A stretch of 48,607 bases of DNA from an uncultured Synechococcus sp. (lineage in GTDB: Bacteria > Cyanobacteriota > Cyanobacteriia > PCC-6307 > Cyanobiaceae): positions 1-48,607 of the forward strand of contig CAJWXK010000002.1 of NCBI GenBank assembly GCA_913048995.1, given 5' to 3'. Position numbers and translations under genes: made by a program. This document shows, one piece after another, positions 6,895-29,182 of the stretch. The notes beneath the pieces were generated by a model. That model ran no database searches. It had not been told where the DNA came from and saw only the letters and a program-made list of their open reading frames with translations. Numbering within the stretch: position 1 is the first letter of the stretch; each line of letters begins with the position of its first letter.

Positions 6895-7935
6895 TCACTT
6901 CCAGCCGTTGGCTTTCATGAGCTCTTTGGCCTGCTTGTTCTTGGCACCGAGCTGCTCGATTGAAACCCCATCAGCTTTGAAGGTCCCCCAGCTCTTCAAG
7001 ATGGAATTGTCGCCAAAACCCTTGACTGGATATTCGAAGTTGGCTGCGGCGTAACCCTTGCCGGAATTGGGAGAAGCAAGGAACTCGATCAGTTTCAGGG
7101 CTGCTTCAGGGTTGTCAGACGAAGCTGTAACCCCTGCGCCACTCACATTGACGTGGGTGGGGTTGGGGAACACAACTTTGACTTTTTCAGCTAGAGCCTT
7201 GTTGTCTTCTCCTTTGCGTCCGCCGAGCATCCTGCCAACGTAGTAAGTGTTTACTACGGCTACGCCACAGGTGCCTTTGCCAACAGCCTGAACCTGAGGC
7301 GTGTCTTTAGGAAAGAATTCCTGGCTCACGTTTGCGGCCATGCCGCGAATCCATTTTGCTGTTGCAGCTTCGCCGCGCAGGATGATTTGATCAGCTACGA
7401 GTGATTGGTTGTAAGGGCTTTTGCGGTTGCGTAAGCACAGCTTCCCTTTTAGTGCGGGGTTGGCCAGATCCGCATAGCTTTTGATGCTGGCAGGGTCGAC
7501 GATGTCAGGATTAACGATGGGTACACGAGCTCTGCGGGTCAGCGCGTACCACTTGCCGTTTGGATCGCGAAGGTTGGCAGGAACCATCCTTTGCAGTTTC
7601 GGAGAAATGCTTGGACGGAAGAGGCCGGCGTTGGAGGCTTTGACCAGGCGGGCAGCATCAACAAGAACGAGTACATCAGCTGGGCTGTTCTCACCCTCAC
7701 TCTCAAGACGCTTGAGAAGCACCTTGTCCTTGGCTTCTAAAACTTTGATTTTGATTCCTGGATTTTGTCTCTCAAACTCTCGATAGAGCTCCTTATCCGT
7801 GTTGTAGTGCCGGCCGCTGTAGACACCAAGTTCGATGTTCTGCTGAGCCTGCAGAGGACGGATGGACGGTGAAAGGATCAGGGCGGTCGCTGTCAGACCA
7901 CTGAGGGCCAGAAAGGAGGTGGACAGGCGCAACAA
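6895..7935 (-). CDS. futA: Fe3+ ABC transporter substrate-binding protein (FutA/IdiA-like)
   Basis: N-terminal signal-like region then ELGVYSGRHYNTDKELYREFERQNPGIKIKVLEAK and YALTRRARVPIVN, characteristic of FutA/IdiA. Confidence 0.9.
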   Translation of the reverse strand: MLRLSTSFLALSGLTATALILSPSIRPLQAQQNIELGVYSGRHYNTDKELYREFERQNPGIKIKVLEAKDKVLLKRLESEGENSPADVLVLVDAARLVKASNAGLFRPSISPKLQRMVPANLRDPNGKWYALTRRARVPIVNPDIVDPASIKSYADLANPALKGKLCLRNRKSPYNQSLVADQIILRGEAATAKWIRGMAANVSQEFFPKDTPQVQAVGKGTCGVAVVNTYYVGRMLGGRKGEDNKALAEKVKVVFPNPTHVNVSGAGVTASSDNPEAALKLIEFLASPNSGKGYAAANFEYPVKGFGDNSILKSWGTFKADGVSIEQLGAKNKQAKELMKANGWK

Positions 7936-7943
7936 AAGATCAA

Positions 7944-7960
7944 TTGCGAATCATTCGCAA
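7944..7960. promoter_or_regulatory. Candidate Fur-type operator upstream of futA
   Basis: Perfect palindrome TTGCGAAT-C-ATTCGCAA, 8 bp upstream of the futA start. Confidence 0.5.
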
Positions 7961-17882: not shown

Positions 17883-18896
17883 TCAGAAGCTGAAGCTCAC
17901 GCCGGTGCCGATGTGGTGGGAGAAGCCGGTGCCCCAACCTTCCCCGCCTTTTGTGCTGTACATCGGCTCCCAGTGAGCAAACACCACCGCTTTCTCGCTA
18001 ATGGGGTACTCGAGCGCCAGTTCACCGCCCCAGTCAGTGCGTTGCGGGAGCTTGGCGTAGTCACCAGGCACATAGAAACGCGGACCAACCGTGAGGGTGA
18101 CGTTCAATTTGTCGTAGTTGAAGCCAAATCCTGGGCGGACATCGGTGTAGTTGCCGATGTAAAGGCCATCGCTCTCCCAGCCGGTGGCGTTCTTGGCCGA
18201 GATGAAAATTCCATCAACGACGTCCTCGAGGCCATCGCCGAGGGCGAAGTTCACATCGCCATCACCAAAGGCGTAGATCGCGCCAAAGTGCATTTCATTT
18301 TTGAGACCCTTCTTCTCGTCCTCGCCTTGATTAGCGGTGACGTAGTAGGGCTTCCAAGTGGCAGAGAGAGCGAGCTGCTCAGTGGGTTCGTAGCGAACCT
18401 GCAGGTAACCCTTGAGATCGGTGCGGCGGTAAGGGGCGCCATCGCTGTGGCTGTGGGCATGCTCCTCATGTTCATGCTCCTCTTCGGCGTGCTCCTCGCC
18501 TTCGTGCTCTTCTTCTTCGTGGTGATGGTCGTCATGGTCATCCTTGTGGACCAGTCCGTAAAAGTGCTCGGCCTCACCCCATACGGCAGCTCCACCCACC
18601 TGGGCTTCGATAGCGAGGCTGCCGTTGTTGGAGAGGCCCCACTCAAAAACAGCCCCGGCCATGGCATCGATGGCGTAGTGCTGTGGCTGTCCAAGTTCAA
18701 CGAGATTGTTCTCAAAGCCGCCGTGGCCTTCGATGGTGATCACGGGGCGCACATTGAATTCGCCAGGGGCGAGTTCCTCACCACCGGCAGCGCCGTGGGC
18801 ATGGGCGGATGAGAGGAGCGCGTCTGGGATGCCGAGGCTGAGGCCGACGCTGGCACCGAGGAGACAGGTCGTGAGGCGGGGAAAGCGAAAGTTCAT
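17883..18896 (-). CDS. Outer-membrane-like protein with His/Glu-rich loop
   Basis: Signal-like N-terminus, beta-strand repeats, HKDDHDDHHHEEEEHEGEEHAEEEHEHEEHAHSHSDGA insert, C-terminal ...HIGTGVSFSF. Confidence 0.7.
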   Translation of the reverse strand: MNFRFPRLTTCLLGASVGLSLGIPDALLSSAHAHGAAGGEELAPGEFNVRPVITIEGHGGFENNLVELGQPQHYAIDAMAGAVFEWGLSNNGSLAIEAQVGGAAVWGEAEHFYGLVHKDDHDDHHHEEEEHEGEEHAEEEHEHEEHAHSHSDGAPYRRTDLKGYLQVRYEPTEQLALSATWKPYYVTANQGEDEKKGLKNEMHFGAIYAFGDGDVNFALGDGLEDVVDGIFISAKNATGWESDGLYIGNYTDVRPGFGFNYDKLNVTLTVGPRFYVPGDYAKLPQRTDWGGELALEYPISEKAVVFAHWEPMYSTKGGEGWGTGFSHHIGTGVSFSF

Positions 18897-19878: not shown

Positions 19879-19893
19879 CGATAATCATTCTCA
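19879..19893. promoter_or_regulatory. Candidate Zur operator upstream of znuA
   Basis: CGATAATCATTCTCA, AT-rich imperfect palindrome resembling TGATAAT-N-ATTATCA, ~19 bp upstream of znuA. Confidence 0.6.
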
Positions 19894-20716: not shown

Positions 20717-21445
20717 TTAGTGCGGGCAACGTGTTGCGCTGCTCATCAGATCATTGAGCTGTTGGCCGACATCAGCGGGGGACCCGTCAAACAGCACTTG
20801 GCCATCCAGCACGATCACCCGGTCGTATTGCATTAAGGCCGTCCCCCAGTCGTGGCTGGTCAGGCAGATACTCCGGCCCTCGCGGGCGAGCTCTTGCAGC
20901 AACTCAATCACCTGGGCTCGTGTAGGAGGGTCCATCGCTGAGCACGGTTCATCGAGCAGCAGGGTTTGAACGTTCTGGGCGATCGCTGCAGCCAGGAGAA
21001 CCCGCTGCTGCTGACCACCAGAGAGCATGCCTAGTCGGTCTGTGGCGCGATCGATTAGGCCCACTCTCTCGAGCGCCTCTTGGGCCGTCATGCCTCGAGT
21101 GCCCGACTGACGGCGAGGCTGTCGTAGATGCACCATCTCAAGCGCAGTAATTGGGAAGGACCAATCGATGCGCCCTCGCTGCGGCATGAGGGCGATCTGC
21201 TGGCGGCAGGATTGCAGCGCTGCTTCTCCGATGAGCACCTTGCCAGCGGTGGGGTTGAGCATGCCCTGCATGATCTGCAGCAAGGTGGATTTGCCAGCGC
21301 CATTAGGACCAATTAACGCTGTCAGTTCGCCGCTTCGCAGCTTGAGGTTGATCTCATGCAGCACCGTATTGCGGCCATAGGAGTGGCTAATTCCTCGCGC
21401 TTCGAGGCAGGCCTTGTTTGAGAACTCAGGGCTCAGGGTCGGCAC
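20717..21445 (-). CDS. znuC: Zinc ABC transporter ATP-binding protein
   Basis: Walker A GPNGAGKST, signature LSGGQQQRVLLAAAI, Walker B LLLDEPCSAMD. Confidence 0.88.
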   Translation of the reverse strand: MPTLSPEFSNKACLEARGISHSYGRNTVLHEINLKLRSGELTALIGPNGAGKSTLLQIMQGMLNPTAGKVLIGEAALQSCRQQIALMPQRGRIDWSFPITALEMVHLRQPRRQSGTRGMTAQEALERVGLIDRATDRLGMLSGGQQQRVLLAAAIAQNVQTLLLDEPCSAMDPPTRAQVIELLQELAREGRSICLTSHDWGTALMQYDRVIVLDGQVLFDGSPADVGQQLNDLMSSATRCPH

Positions 21446-21813
21446 TTGATGCAGTGACCGAATACTTCAAGGGTGTGGAACAGTGGGGTGAAGCCTTCTG
21501 GCGAGTGCAACTGAAGATCATCCCTTTCCACGGGGCATTTTGGCAGGGGCAAGCTCTTGCCGCACTCCAGACAGGTGAGGTGATGCACATCTCGCGCGAG
21601 CGGGGCATAAAGGGCTTCACCCGAGGGAAGATGACGGCAGCGCACCTCTCCCTTCTGCTGCAACAAGTGCAGATTGCGGTAGACCGTGGCTAATCCCATC
21701 GATTGGGATTGAGCCTTCAACAAGCTGTGCAAGGCTTGACCGCTCAATTCATCCTTGCTCGATTCAAGGATGGTAAGTATCTGTTGTTGGCGAGCGCTCA
21801 GGCTTTTAGCCAT
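21433..21813 (-). CDS. zur: Fur-family regulator, probable Zur
   Basis: Fur-fold GLATVYRNLHLLQQKGEVRCRHLPSGEALYAP, HHLTCLECGKSLPLPKCPV; overlaps znuC start by 13 bp. Confidence 0.85.
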   Translation of the reverse strand: MAKSLSARQQQILTILESSKDELSGQALHSLLKAQSQSMGLATVYRNLHLLQQKGEVRCRHLPSGEALYAPLARDVHHLTCLECGKSLPLPKCPVERDDLQLHSPEGFTPLFHTLEVFGHCIKCRP

Positions 21814-23020: not shown

Positions 23021-24334
23021 CTAGCGCAATTGTTCCAGCTGTCGTGATGGCAGCCAACCCACATGTCCCACGGCTCCAGGGATGCCCTTCAAGCTGAGGT
23101 CATCGACCTTCAGCAGGTAGGCCTGCGGTAGGCGCAAAGGTTCCAGCTCCAGCCGCAAGGGGCGCAGTAGCAGGAGTAAGGCGCGTCGACTGGGGTCGTA
23201 GTGCATGGAGCTTCCTGGGTCAAGTTCATAGCCAGTCAGTGGCTGTCGCAGCAGCGTTTCCCCATTGCGATTGAGCTCTACGAGTTCAAGCAGCGGCGTG
23301 CGGATTCCGCTCAGTAGCAGGATCCAGATGCGATCTGCAGCGCCAGCGCAAGCACTTGCCACCAAGGCTTCGTTGCCGATCCACAGCTGCTGCGGTGCTT
23401 TGCCCGGCTCAAGTAGCTCCAGGGAACGTCGGTAGTCAGGCCAGTGGCGCACTAGCAGGGCGCGGCCGGCCTGGGGACAGAAGCTGCTGAGGTCCCTGAG
23501 TCCGGGCAACACATCACGGCGCGGCGGAAGCGGCGGCAGGGATTGCAGCACGAGGCCATCGCGTTCGGGTACGACTGCCAGGCCTCCTTGGGGTACTAGT
23601 CGAATGGGGCCGCCGGCGCTGATGGCCAGTTCGCGTCTCTGGCCACCTGCGGACCACAGCTTCACTGAGGCCTGGCGCTGCTCCAGAGTTGAGCGCTGTA
23701 CAAGCAGATCGCCTGGGTTGTTGGTGCTGAGGCTGGCGAAGACCACCGGTTCGCGCTCCAGTTCCTGCGGTGTTCCGGCCTGCAGTTGGGGTGAGAGCGG
23801 CAGGCGCCAGACCCGTTTTTCCAAAGGATCACGGGCACTGACCAGGGCCACCCCGCTGCCATCACCCAAGGGAAGGAGGTCGTGCACCTCTCCGGGAAAC
23901 CGGTTCAGGACTTGCCAGCCGCTGTCTTCCTTCCAGTGCAACAGCTGCTCGTGGCTCCCCTCGGGCCGACTGGCCACTAGTGCTGGTCGCGGCTCCCAGC
24001 GCCAGTGGCTCGCTGCGAGCGTTTGGCCCCGTTGATCCTGTCCTCCCAGTCGAAGTTCCACCGGCCCCTCAATAGCCTGGGTACCTGTCAGTTGCAGGCG
24101 CCAGCGGGTGCCTTCCCCCAGCAGTTCATGGGGCAGATCAGGAACCAGCTCAAGCTGTTGGCGCAGGCTGGCGCCATCCATCGGCCGGCTGAAGCGCAGC
24201 CCAAGCGCTGCCAGGGCAGAGCCAGGTGCTTCCGGCTCCAGACGCTGTAGTCGCGGTGGACGTCGCTGCAGCAGTTGCTGCTGAATCAAGGCCAGCCCTA
24301 GACCGGCCAGCAGCAGTGCACCCCAGCGTTTCAT
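23021..24334 (-). CDS. Uncharacterised 437-aa exported/membrane-anchored protein in zinc operon
   Basis: N-terminal hydrophobic anchor, SbsA Ig-like LRFSRPMD motif, then beta-rich region; 4-bp overlap with the TIGR03943 gene. Confidence 0.65.
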   Translation of the reverse strand: MKRWGALLLAGLGLALIQQQLLQRRPPRLQRLEPEAPGSALAALGLRFSRPMDGASLRQQLELVPDLPHELLGEGTRWRLQLTGTQAIEGPVELRLGGQDQRGQTLAASHWRWEPRPALVASRPEGSHEQLLHWKEDSGWQVLNRFPGEVHDLLPLGDGSGVALVSARDPLEKRVWRLPLSPQLQAGTPQELEREPVVFASLSTNNPGDLLVQRSTLEQRQASVKLWSAGGQRRELAISAGGPIRLVPQGGLAVVPERDGLVLQSLPPLPPRRDVLPGLRDLSSFCPQAGRALLVRHWPDYRRSLELLEPGKAPQQLWIGNEALVASACAGAADRIWILLLSGIRTPLLELVELNRNGETLLRQPLTGYELDPGSSMHYDPSRRALLLLLRPLRLELEPLRLPQAYLLKVDDLSLKGIPGAVGHVGWLPSRQLEQLR

Positions 24335-25014
24335 GGCTCCAGGGGGCGCTCCGGTTTGGGGATTAACTCGATTGCATCGGCCACCACAATGCTGCGCAAT
24401 CCACCTTGATGGCGTTCAACTCCCATTGAGCCACTGACCTCAAACCACTGGTCCGCTTTGGGCTGGCTGCCTGTGGGCCAGAGGACCGGCAGGCCGACGG
24501 GGGTTGCATCGGCCAGACAGCACCGCACGGTCAGTCGCGCCAGCTGCGGGGGGGCTCCTGGCACCGGCAGTACAAATCCGCTGATGCGAACTGGATCGTC
24601 GCGGTAGAGCTCGGGGTCAGGTTGACTTCGTAGCAGACGCACCCAGTCCGTGAGGCTGCGTTGCTCTGGCGGTGAGAAAAAGGTCAGGGCCTGATCTGCA
24701 TCGCCCAGATCACTGGTGGAGCGGTTGGCGGCCAGGGTGGAGAGAGAGGGCCTTGGTGGCAAGACCAGCAGGAGCGGTGCTGCCAGAAGCATCACCAATG
24801 CGGGCCTTTGACCGCTGCGCCGCGGTGGAGGGAATCGCAGGGCCATCAGCGCAAGGCCCAGGAGCAGCAATGCAGCCACAAAGACCAGCCAGTGGAAATC
24901 GGCCTGAAGCAGCAAGTTGAGTCGGCCGCTGCTCCATGCCTGAAGAAGCACAGCGCCCCAAAAGCCCAAGGCCAGAGGAGGGAGCCAGTTCATAGCAGCA
25001 GCATGTTGAGCCAT
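24331..25014 (-). CDS. TIGR03943/DUF1980-family protein (YcgQ-like)
   Basis: Two N-terminal TM segments and DPELYRDDPVRISGFVLPVPGAPPQLARLTVRCCLADATPVGLPVLWP. Confidence 0.75.
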   Translation of the reverse strand: MAQHAAAMNWLPPLALGFWGAVLLQAWSSGRLNLLLQADFHWLVFVAALLLLGLALMALRFPPPRRSGQRPALVMLLAAPLLLVLPPRPSLSTLAANRSTSDLGDADQALTFFSPPEQRSLTDWVRLLRSQPDPELYRDDPVRISGFVLPVPGAPPQLARLTVRCCLADATPVGLPVLWPTGSQPKADQWFEVSGSMGVERHQGGLRSIVVADAIELIPKPERPLEP

Positions 25015-25991
25015 TGGCCGATCAGCAGCACCGCCAGGACAACGCCGCCAAGCATCAGCAGGATGCCGCGGCGGCGAAAGAGTCGCGCAAACAGGCTCAG
25101 GCTTTTGAGGTCGATCACTGGGCCCAGGAGCAGAAAGGCCAGCAGAGCTCCTGGGGTCACTAGGGCGGCAAAGCCCAGGGCAAGAAAAGCATCGACGCTC
25201 GAGCAGACGCTCACTACCACGGCCAGCACCATCAGGCTGATGACGGAGAGGGTGGGTGCCTGTCCCACCGTGAGGAAGAGATCCCTGGGAATCAGGGTCT
25301 GAATCGTGGCAGCAATGGCACAGCCCAGCAGCAGCAGGCTGCCTAGTTCAAGAAATTCCCGCAATCCATGGTCAAGGAGCACTGATAGTGGAGGCCGTGC
25401 TGGCTCCATCACTGGCGATGCAGGCGTCATGGGTGGCGGGCCGATCAGACCGCCCCGGCGCTCAAGCAGGCTGGCGCGCTCCAAGGGTTGTCCCATGCGC
25501 CGCTCCTCCAGCAGGTCGGGAGCCAGTAAGGCGGCTTCGCTGAGCTGCTGCAGTAAAGCGGTCAGGGCCAGGGCAATGAGCACGCTCCCCAATGGACGCA
25601 GCAGTAACAACCAGGGACGATCAGGGAAGGCTGCCCAGGTGCTCAGCAGCACGATCGGATTCAGCACCGGGGCGGCGAAGAGGAATCCCAGGGCTGCCCC
25701 CATCGGAGCCCCCTGGGCCAGTAGGCGCCTTGCTACTGGCACATTGCCGCACTCGCAGGCTGGGAGGGCAAAGCCAAGAGCGGCACCACTGAGGGGGCCT
25801 AGTAGTGGATGTGTCGGGAGTTTCTGCAGCCAGCGGCCTCGTGGATCCCAGGCACGCGCCACTGTCGCAATGGCCACACCGATGAGCAAAAAAGGGATCG
25901 CTTCAAGCAGCAGGCCTTGGAAAACAGCCCAGACGGTCTGCAGCTGAGGGCCAAACGGCAGATTCACCCCTAGTTTGAGAACGATTCCCAT
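24990..25991 (-). CDS. COG0701-family permease (YraQ/YcgR-like)
   Basis: LPACECGNVPVARRLLAQGAPMGAALGFLFAAPVLNPIVLLSTW motif; eight or so TM segments. Confidence 0.82.
   Translation of the reverse strand: MGIVLKLGVNLPFGPQLQTVWAVFQGLLLEAIPFLLIGVAIATVARAWDPRGRWLQKLPTHPLLGPLSGAALGFALPACECGNVPVARRLLAQGAPMGAALGFLFAAPVLNPIVLLSTWAAFPDRPWLLLLRPLGSVLIALALTALLQQLSEAALLAPDLLEERRMGQPLERASLLERRGGLIGPPPMTPASPVMEPARPPLSVLLDHGLREFLELGSLLLLGCAIAATIQTLIPRDLFLTVGQAPTLSVISLMVLAVVVSVCSSVDAFLALGFAALVTPGALLAFLLLGPVIDLKSLSLFARLFRRRGILLMLGGVVLAVLLIGQWLNMLLL
25976..25990. promoter_or_regulatory. Candidate Zur operator in divergent zinc promoter
   Basis: TGAGAACGATTCCCA, imperfect palindrome matching the znuA box CGATAATCATTCTCA at 10 of 14 core positions. 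Confidence 0.45.
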
Positions 25992-26006: not shown

Positions 26007-27020
26007 GTGGCGCGTGTGTTGAACAGGATCGCTGGGACTTTGGCATCTGTCCCCCTCCTGACGCTGCTTGTTGCTTGTGGTTCAGGCTCCGAACAGGCAT
26101 CAGCTCCCACGGCGGAGAGTGAAGCGTCGCCTCAAGAGCCGCTGCAGGTGGTGACTACCGTGCTGCCGGTCAATCTCTTCACCCAGGCGGTGGCGGGAGA
26201 TTGCGCCACGGTTACTTCTCTTCTTCCTGCTGGAGCTGACACCCACGCCTTCCAGGCCCGTCCCCAGGATGTGGCCACCTTGCGCAAGGCGCAGGTCCTG
26301 GTCGTCAACGGCCTCGGTCTTGAGGCATTTCTCAAACCACTCCTGGAGAGTGCCGAAAATCCTGCCCTGATTGAAATTGACACCAGCAAGGGCATCACCC
26401 CTATGAAACTTGAAGCGGAAGAGGAGGGTGGACACCACCATCACCATGGCCATGGTCACGACCACGGCCATCACCATGGTCACGGTGATGGGGAAGAAGC
26501 GGTGGATCCCCATATCTGGCTCGATCCGATGCTGGCCTCCAAACAGGTGGAGAACATTCGTGATGGTCTGATCCAGGCTGATCCGGGCTGCGCTGATGGC
26601 TATCGCCAGCGTGCAGCGAACTACCTCTCTGAGTTGAAGCGGTTAGATCAAGACCTGGCCACCACGCTTGCGCCTCATAAAGGAGGCACTGTGGTCAGTT
26701 ACCACGAAGCTCTTGGATATTTCGTGCGCCGCTACGACCTCAAGGCTGAGGCCCTGGTGACCTTGCCGGAGGATCAGCCCACTCCCGCCGATGTCCAGCG
26801 CGTTAGTGCAGCGCTGAAACAAGCCAAGGCCAATGCTGTGCTGACTGAACCTGGTGGCGGTAGTGCTGCCTTGCAGTCCATCGCCAAAGATCTGGACTTG
26901 TCATTGGAGGTGTTTGATCCAATGGAGCTGGTGCCCGCCGATCAGCAGCGCACCCCGCAGCTTTACGTCAAGGTGATGCAGAGCAACGGTGCAGCGGTGG
27001 CAGCCACCTTTCAGCCTTGA
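26007..27020 (+). CDS. Second zinc-type ABC substrate-binding lipoprotein with His-rich loop
   Basis: Lipobox-like LLVACGSG, HHHHHGHGHDHGHHHGHGDGEE, DPHIWLDPMLASKQVENI; GTG start (alternatives 26016/26019). Confidence 0.88.
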   Translation: MARVLNRIAGTLASVPLLTLLVACGSGSEQASAPTAESEASPQEPLQVVTTVLPVNLFTQAVAGDCATVTSLLPAGADTHAFQARPQDVATLRKAQVLVVNGLGLEAFLKPLLESAENPALIEIDTSKGITPMKLEAEEEGGHHHHHGHGHDHGHHHGHGDGEEAVDPHIWLDPMLASKQVENIRDGLIQADPGCADGYRQRAANYLSELKRLDQDLATTLAPHKGGTVVSYHEALGYFVRRYDLKAEALVTLPEDQPTPADVQRVSAALKQAKANAVLTEPGGGSAALQSIAKDLDLSLEVFDPMELVPADQQRTPQLYVKVMQSNGAAVAATFQP

Positions 27021-27766
27021 ATCCACCCCTGCTTGCCGTTCGTGATCTGCAGGTGCGGCGCGGAGAAGCACTGGTGATCGATGGAGTCAGCTTTGAGCTT
27101 GAGGCTGGCTGCGATACGGCTTTAATCGGCCCCAACGGTGCTGGTAAAAGCACCTTGGTGCAGGCGCTGCTGGGGCTTTTGCCCCATCACGGTGGCGTCA
27201 TTGAGCTGCTCGGTCATCCCCTGTCACGCAGTGGTCGTCTGCCGGCTGCCATTCGTGATCAGGTGGCTTACCTCCCGCAGAAGCTGCAGCTCGATGGCCG
27301 TTTCCCGCTGGCGGTCGAGGAGTTTGTGCGCTTGGGGTGCAGCCCCTGCTGCAATCAGCGCACCGCGGTACCAGCAGTACTGGATCGGTTGCAAGTGCGT
27401 CATCTGCGCCGCCGCCTGCTCAGTGAACTCTCCGGGGGTGAGTTGCAGCGGGTTCTGTTGGCGTTTTGCACGGTGCATCCCAGGCGCTTGCTGGTCTTTG
27501 ATGAGCCTCGAACCGGCCTGGATCCACAGGCTGCGGAGCAGTTTCACGAGCTCCTTCAGCAGCTGCGCCGTGAGCAGGGGCTGACGATCATGCAAATCAC
27601 CCATGATCTCCAAATGGTGCGTCGCAGTTGCGACTGGGTGCTGTGTCTCAACCGCAGGCTCTGTTGCCAGGGCCCGCCCCAACAGACCCTTAGCCGAGAC
27701 GAACTGGAGCGCCTCTTCGGTGGCGATTTCGTCCTTTATGAGCACAACCATCACCATTTTCGATGA
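27017..27766 (+). CDS. Second zinc-type ABC ATP-binding protein
   Basis: GPNGAGKSTLVQALLG, LSGGELQRVLLAF, LLVFDEPRTGLD. Confidence 0.88.
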   Translation: MNPPLLAVRDLQVRRGEALVIDGVSFELEAGCDTALIGPNGAGKSTLVQALLGLLPHHGGVIELLGHPLSRSGRLPAAIRDQVAYLPQKLQLDGRFPLAVEEFVRLGCSPCCNQRTAVPAVLDRLQVRHLRRRLLSELSGGELQRVLLAFCTVHPRRLLVFDEPRTGLDPQAAEQFHELLQQLRREQGLTIMQITHDLQMVRRSCDWVLCLNRRLCCQGPPQQTLSRDELERLFGGDFVLYEHNHHHFR

Positions 27767-28638
27767 GTTCTGATCTGAGTGGCAGCCTGGCCCTGCTACA
27801 GGAGCCGTTTATGCAGCGGGCCTTGTTCGGCGGGTTGATCACCGGCGTGCTCGGAGGTTGGGTGGGCAGCTTGGCCGTGCTGCGACAGCTGTCCTTCTTT
27901 GCTGAGGCCCTAGGGCAGGCCTCGTTGCTAGGGATCAGCTTCGCCTTGCTCATGAGCTTGAGCCCGTCGTTGTTGCTGCTGCCATTTGCACTTGGTTTTG
28001 CCGTGCTGCTGCGGTTGCTGCTCAAGCGCAGTTCACTGTCAGCTGATGCTCTTTTGAGCCTGATGTGCTCTAGCGCCTTGGCGCTGTCGGTGGTGTTGCT
28101 GAGTTCTTTGCCTGGGGCGCGGTTGAGCCTTCAGCAGCTTCTCTTTGGGGACATCCTCGGCATCAGCTGGAGTGATCTGGTGCCGATGCTGCTGTTGCTG
28201 ATCATCACCTTGACTTACGGCGTGATCAGTCGACGCGCCCAGATCCTGATCAGTGTGGATCCGCTGCTGGCGCGTTCGCGGGGGGTGGCTGTTGAGACCC
28301 ATCGCATGGCCTTGCTGGGCCTTTTGGCCCTGGTGGTGGCAGTGTCGATTAAGGCCGTCGGGGTTCTATTAATCAGCGGTTTTGTGGTGATTCCAGCCTG
28401 TACAGCCCGGCTTCTGAGCCGCAGTTTCACGGCTTACGTGCTTCTTGCTTCTGGCATCGGAGCCCTCTCGGCGGTTCTTGGTCTGCTGGGTTCAGCTGTG
28501 CTCAATCAGCCTTCTGGGCCGATGGTGGTGCTGATGCAGGCTTTTCTTTTTGGGCTGACTTTTGCTCTGGCAGGGCTCTTGGCACAGCGCTGGGCTGGCG
28601 CAGCAGCCACTGCAGCGTCTGCTGATCACGGGGGCTGA
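27763..28638 (+). CDS. Second zinc-type ABC permease
   Basis: ABC-3 family: MQRALFGGLITGVLGGWVGSLAVLRQLSFFAEALGQASLLGISFALL; 4-bp overlap with ATPase. Confidence 0.87.
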   Translation: MSSDLSGSLALLQEPFMQRALFGGLITGVLGGWVGSLAVLRQLSFFAEALGQASLLGISFALLMSLSPSLLLLPFALGFAVLLRLLLKRSSLSADALLSLMCSSALALSVVLLSSLPGARLSLQQLLFGDILGISWSDLVPMLLLLIITLTYGVISRRAQILISVDPLLARSRGVAVETHRMALLGLLALVVAVSIKAVGVLLISGFVVIPACTARLLSRSFTAYVLLASGIGALSAVLGLLGSAVLNQPSGPMVVLMQAFLFGLTFALAGLLAQRWAGAAATAASADHGG

Positions 28639-29182
28639 GTTTTAGCGGTGGGGCCGACCCCTGGCTGGTGGCCATGACATCTCCGTTTTCGCTGCTGTGC
28701 CCCCAAAGGCCAAAGCCATGGCCCAGTTCATGGAGAGCAGTGGACTGCAGTACCTCCCGGCGTAGCCCCGGGCTAAGGAGCACTTCGACCTGGGGTTCGA
28801 GCATCGGATTGCTGTAGTCCTCTCTCAGCACCTGTTGCAGACGGAGATAGGCGCGGCCATTGCTGGCACGGCCATCACGAAGGGGTGGACGCCGCCGCCA
28901 CAAGCGAAGGTGGGCATCCTCCGCTGACTCGACGCGTTCGATCTTGATGTGGTCACCCCATTCCGTTAGGGCACCTTCCACCGCCTGGCTCCAACGGCGG
29001 CTCCAGCGATCGTCGCCGCCAGGTTCGACCCACACACACCACCGCGGCAATGTGATCCAACCGGCCCTCGAGGGCTTGAGGCTGGCGGCATACCCCGGAG
29101 CGGAAGCGGGTGCTGGAGCCGCTGCCTGCTGAGGTGGGTCAGGCGGTGGCAGGCGCCACTGCACTGGAGCACAGGGAATCAT
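28502..29182 (-). CDS. Metzincin-like (matrixin-type) metallopeptidase
   Basis: HELGHGFGLWGHS matches HExxHxxGxxH. Confidence 0.72.
   Translation of the reverse strand: MIPCAPVQWRLPPPDPPQQAAAPAPASAPGYAASLKPSRAGWITLPRWCVWVEPGGDDRWSRRWSQAVEGALTEWGDHIKIERVESAEDAHLRLWRRRPPLRDGRASNGRAYLRLQQVLREDYSNPMLEPQVEVLLSPGLRREVLQSTALHELGHGFGLWGHSSENGDVMATSQGSAPPLKLSPRDQQTLQWLLRQPSAVPRALPEQKSAQKEKPASAPPSAQKAD

Follow-up and report, generated by a model that had tools for sequence, protein, structure and literature searches.

The window, a 48,607-nucleotide stretch of DNA from an uncultured Synechococcus sp., belongs to a picocyanobacterial draft genome of 1.8 Mb that is 82% complete. Three genes follow each other on its minus strand, encoding a COG0701 permease (24990-25991), a TIGR03943 protein (24331-25014) and a protein of 437 aa (23021-24334). 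According to the ORF list, the first two overlap by 25 bp (24990-25014) and the last two by 4 bp, as the first-pass annotation had described. The shorter overlap is an ATGA stop/start (24331-24334, minus strand), which was kept in 44/49 Cyanobiaceae loci. The arrangement is therefore not due to chance, and the translational coupling proposed for the three genes is supported. The start of the permease gene was ambiguous, with an ATG at 25991 or a GTG 24 bp downstream.

The zinc block in which these genes had been placed proved to be real. It comprises a Fur-family regulator (21433-21813, minus strand; PF01475), probably Zur, whose position beside znu genes is conserved, two znuABC sets, a COG0523 GTPase and a His-rich barrel protein. 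Divergent from the permease gene lies znuA2 (26007-27020, plus strand; PF01297, 239 bits), followed on the same strand by the genes of the ATPase ZnuC2 (27017-27766) and the permease ZnuB2 (27763-28638), both assigned from the ORFs and synteny. The barrel-type protein (17883-18896, minus strand) contains a long His/Glu-rich stretch, is encoded next to znuA1 and is a candidate zinc porin. A short protein (28502-29182, minus strand) gave a weak match to matrixin-type (M10) metalloproteases; the last 137 bp of its ORF overlap znuB2, which is on the other strand, and this position is kept in many relatives.

The permease and the TIGR03943 protein

The permease matched PF03773 (ArsP_1) with 203.3 bits, against a cut-off of 32.3 (E 6e-60, Pfam), and its neighbor matched TIGR03943 with 151.5 bits, against a cut-off of 88.8, which agrees with the identities first given to them. 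The TIGR03943 protein is made of N-terminal membrane segments and a C-terminal OB-like beta domain, corresponding to the DUF1980 C-terminal domain (PF21537). Its model was of modest confidence (pLDDT 72.6), and the fold search with it indicated an OB-like fold, with nothing below E 0.001. Among solved structures we found no relative of the permease and chance matches only for the TIGR03943 protein.

We also compared the permease with curated families of the same Pfam family. It scored 85.5 bits against NF033936 (SO_0444 Cu/Zn efflux transporter; cut-off 300) and 56.9 bits against NF040736 (SaoE efflux transporter; cut-off 325). Being so far below both cut-offs, it cannot be given a substrate by homology. 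It shares with the PF03773 permeases, including ArsP, SO_0444 and SaoE, the conserved membrane cysteine motif, but differs from SO_0444 and SaoE in being paired with a TIGR03943 protein wherever this was checked. ArsP methylarsenite exporters export trivalent organoarsenicals, and relatives that are exporters fit poorly with an induction at low zinc.

Two cysteine motifs of the permease, CECG (residues 79-82, 25746-25757, minus strand) and CS(S/T)VD (residues 263-267, 25191-25205, minus strand), were invariant in 17/17 cyanobacterial sequences, also in the wider forms CECGNVP and S-CS-VD-F. In the TIGR03943 protein, a Cys-Cys pair (residues 165-166, 24517-24522, minus strand) at the start of the OB-like C-terminal domain was found in all 18 cyanobacterial sequences covering the site. 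These invariant motifs favor a soft metal, a metalloid or a thiol-bound compound as the putative substrate of the permease system.

COG0701-TIGR03943 pairs are known as ycgR/ycgQ and scfA/scfB and are of unknown function (PMC5584981). As in the trio, the genes of the two families are adjacent, with the permease first; in the trio this adjacency is conserved. YcgR-YcgQ and ScfA-ScfB form a two-gene unit (bicistronic in GAS), whereas the trio has a coupled and apparently obligate third gene. The Zur control that the first-pass annotation had attributed to ycgR/ycgQ in Bacillus subtilis was not found in the B. subtilis Zur literature searched. The pair is instead reported to be under ECF sigma factors, in connection with stress and envelope homeostasis (PMC5584981), while the trio of the window adjoins a Zur box. 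In GAS, scfAB is required for fitness in soft tissue, and mutants of scfAB/SMU.746-747 show phenotypes in acid stress, in biofilms and in fitness in vivo (PMC5584981). YcgR has also been found to be 23% similar to ArsP, a transport of organic arsenic being merely suggested (PMC12607644).

Domains of the 437-residue protein

The protein encoded by the third gene had been described as an undescribed partner, and indeed it matched no family in Pfam, NCBIfam or PHROGs; it belongs to an unnamed cyanobacterial family. Its structure was modeled with AlphaFold from its own sequence and those of 15 named marine relatives (pLDDT 82.8). The model consists of a helix (residues 2-23; 24266-24331, minus strand), a small Ig-like domain (residues 29-117; 23984-24250, minus strand) that carries the RFSRPMD motif, and a beta-propeller (residues 118-437; 23024-23983, minus strand). 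The helix is a predicted membrane anchor, of which the hydropathy by itself is marginal in the window sequence. The window protein did not match PF13205 (Big_5, the SbsA Ig-like domain), but three aligned homologues did, with 26.0, 24.5 and 24.3 bits against a cut-off of 23.6. The best Foldseek matches of the model were TolB, at about 12% identity, and other propellers, and a profile widened to distant cyanobacterial homologues matched TolB weakly by sequence. These distant homologues have about 460-570 aa, are 17-24% identical and mostly start with a basic stretch followed by a hydrophobic helix (i.e., a longer anchor); they share a C-terminal W-L-P-like motif. The Big_5 matches of the homologues and the propeller found by modeling and Foldseek indicate that the architecture initially proposed, with an Ig-like domain and a propeller, is correct.

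In its fold and extracytoplasmic type, the protein resembles beta-propellers that are anchored or periplasmic, TolB among them. Unlike in TolB, an Ig domain and a membrane anchor take the place of the N-terminal domain; furthermore, there was no Pfam match to the TolB family, no tol/pal-like ORF among the neighbors and no Pal/TolA context.

We compared 24 members of the family in search of metal ligands and found no conserved His/Cys/acidic cluster and no metal-ligand set. Zinc sensing by the 437-residue protein, as had been suggested, thus has no support from the sequence. Direct zinc binding was also considered and rejected, since the only invariant cysteines, Cys286 and Cys329, are invariant within Cyanobiaceae and gone in the distant homologues.

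Distribution and gene order in cyanobacteria

The co-occurrence of the three genes had been named beforehand as the test that could refute a functional link, and its outcome spoke strongly for such a link. In 292 genomes across the phylum, the 437-residue family (searched with a deep profile) and TIGR03943 occurred in an identical set of 119; two and one additional weak matches were left out of this count. Among 400 Cyanobiaceae genomes, each of the two was present in 192; 190 genomes had both and 206 neither. The four exceptions consisted of two genomes with the 437-residue family only, where the genes are fragments cut by contig ends (G231 and G191), and two with TIGR03943 only, one being 73% complete (G187) and the other containing a match below the cut-off (G049). 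The permease was present in 49/49 genomes of the class that were positive for both and tested for it, and in 0/8 Cyanobiaceae genomes devoid of both. The trio was found nearly everywhere in the class Cyanobacteriia and is missing from Prochlorococcus-like lineages; it is probably absent from the non-photosynthetic outgroups. The third component has so far been seen only in cyanobacteria.

The Fisher values for this co-occurrence were tiny, but they are inflated by shared ancestry, and the class-wide pattern is partly due to phylogenetic inertia. Losses within a genus are therefore a stronger argument. Three genomes (G005, G009 and G081; 99% complete) lacked all three genes, which their congeners have. 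G009 is a complete genome in one contig; the trio is cleanly absent from the interval between its znuB and hisIE genes, whereas it has retained znuABC, zur and the barrel gene. The two other near-complete Cyanobiaceae genomes, G005 and G081, also gave only weak znuA1 matches and may have lost the entire zinc block. Taken together, the co-occurrence, the presence or absence of the permease and the joint loss indicate that the three genes form one system. It is well supported that this system is genuine and has three parts, the third of them undescribed and cyanobacteria-wide.

The order of the genes (permease, TIGR03943, 437-residue family) was the same in nearly all the Cyanobiaceae loci that we read. 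Outside this family, the gene for the 437-residue protein lies downstream of the TIGR03943 gene on the same strand in 70/102 genomes (within 500 bp in 65), and all three genes were adjacent in the five loci out of five where the permease was also read. It did not adjoin the TIGR03943 gene in the 32 other genomes, yet still co-occurred with it. Two copies of the 437-residue family were present in 21 cyanobacterial genomes (including G413, G457, G475, G482, G492 and G494), in tandem in a few of them (G457, G482 and G595), and mostly with a single TIGR03943 gene. These unlinked and second copies are what one would expect if the third gene were a mere conserved neighbor, translated with the operon and acting elsewhere. 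We regard this as very improbable, because the gene co-occurs with the TIGR03943 gene without exception even when unlinked and is lost together with the other two.

Zur boxes, WH8102 and the role of the trio

The window was scanned with a Zur motif (PWM) built from the znuA boxes of other genera. The best site, upstream of znuA1 (19879-19893), scored 22.3. The second best, TGAGAACGATTCCCA (25976-25990; score 21.2), lies between the start of the permease gene and znuA2, which is divergent from it. Its score was reached by 0/60 random sequences of the same length, and the box was conserved in 4/4 aligned genomes of the genus. The box is about 30 bp ahead of the start codon of znuA2 and overlaps the start of the permease gene, and may therefore act on znuA2 only. 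Nonetheless, a Zur box shared with znuA2 adjoins the operon in this genus, so that low zinc probably raises expression of the trio there, to judge from the sequence. The third-best palindrome of the Zur/Fur type, TGCGAATCATTCGCA (7945-7959), is just upstream of the gene for an iron-binding protein (6895-7935). The adjacent iron block contains a Fur-like gene, an ABC iron uptake system, a flavodoxin and an isiA-like gene, and the palindrome is probably a Fur box belonging to it.

Published data on Synechococcus WH8102 bear on this point. In the portion of the study available, which used strand-specific RNA-seq libraries, synw0968-0973 are Zur-repressed and synw0970-0973 are also increased at low zinc; synw0972 and synw0973 are termed uncharacterized, and the control of synw0973 is termed unclear (PMC9337993). 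In related marine genomes, divergent znuB-znuC (minus strand) and znuA-barrel (plus strand) genes are followed by the convergent genes for the 437-residue protein, TIGR03943 and COG0701 (minus strand), the stops of the barrel gene and of the 437-residue protein gene being usually 0-145 bp apart. By synteny, synw0972 would encode the barrel protein and synw0973 the homologue of the 437-residue protein, its gene standing directly after znuA and the barrel gene and convergent with the latter. The presumed SYNW0973 gene would then be oriented against the induced transcript of SYNW0972. Among the three presumed trio genes, SYNW0973 is the only one included in the regulon data of the available portion (PMC9337993). 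Regulation of the two genes upstream of it in the operon is not reported there. Read-through is therefore the simplest explanation, and the Zur response of SYNW0973 is probably convergent read-through rather than regulation. The accessible part of a paper on Synechocystis zur names no trio gene.

The interpretation that we favor, with a probability of about 0.6, is that the trio is one membrane system, near-universal in Cyanobacteriia, composed of the permease, the TIGR03943 subunit and the 437-residue protein as a third subunit, and probably transporting a thiophilic metal. The permease would most likely move this metal, or a metal/metalloid complex, across the membrane, and the TIGR03943 membrane subunit, with its Cys-Cys, would pass or gate the substrate. 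The propeller would act as a docking or scaffold part, borne by the anchored Ig domain, most likely on the outer side of the membrane. We infer that the three proteins form a complex, and likewise its substrate, direction and topology. With the same better-than-even confidence, we consider the 437-residue protein to be the representative of an undescribed class-wide family, the obligate propeller-bearing third subunit of a core COG0701-TIGR03943 complex, of which SYNW0973 would be the marine member.

A dedicated zinc system, importing or delivering zinc under the control of Zur at low zinc and using the propeller as a periplasmic zinc-handling partner, appears unlikely to us, even though most Cyanobiaceae loci examined had the trio inside or beside zur/znu clusters, the Zur box is present here and in the aligned genomes of the genus, and the presumed SYNW0973 is increased both when zinc is low and when zur is mutated, in the portion of the WH8102 study available (PMC9337993). 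In other genera no Zur box was found at COG0701 except in two loci (L036 and L041), where znuA2 is again divergent, and no zinc gene was present within a 12-kb stretch in seven loci outside Cyanobiaceae with the 437-residue protein gene beside the TIGR03943 gene. The trio was lost while znu and zur were retained in G009, Prochlorococcus-like genomes have kept znuA homologues without the trio, and the lack of a conserved His/Cys cluster in the 437-residue family and the simpler read-through account for WH8102 point in the same direction. Of the zinc role first proposed, which is weakly supported, the link through the Zur box and the zinc block holds for this genus, where a zinc-specific role is possible, but such a role is not a general property of the trio. 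The trio joined the zinc block in Cyanobiaceae, and the zinc link is local to this one branch. We find equally doubtful a role in the envelope or in stress, apart from metals, such as the membrane or cell-wall homeostasis in which ycgRQ and scfAB may take part, with the location in the zinc block being regulatory hitch-hiking. It would be consistent with the control of ycgR/ycgQ by envelope-stress ECF sigma factors and the scfAB/SMU.746-747 mutant phenotypes (PMC5584981), with the near-universal presence in the class, which suggests a general function, and with propeller and Ig domains being common envelope scaffolds. On the other hand, two of the three proteins have invariant cysteine motifs, which point to a soft metal or a thiol as the substrate, and the trio is repeatedly placed in the zinc blocks of Cyanobiaceae.

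COG0701-TIGR03943 pairs are widespread and uncharacterized, and in streptococci they matter for infection. A class-wide third subunit with a soluble, foldable domain of periplasmic type offers a concrete handle for finding the substrate. The family also provides a proposed identity for SYNW0973, and suggests that its apparent response to Zur is due to read-through. One locus of the genus to which the window belongs deserves mention here: in the complete genome G024 (L031, 8092-8524), the TIGR03943 gene is spread over two frames, as if frameshifted, and the permease and 437-residue protein genes appear intact beside it.
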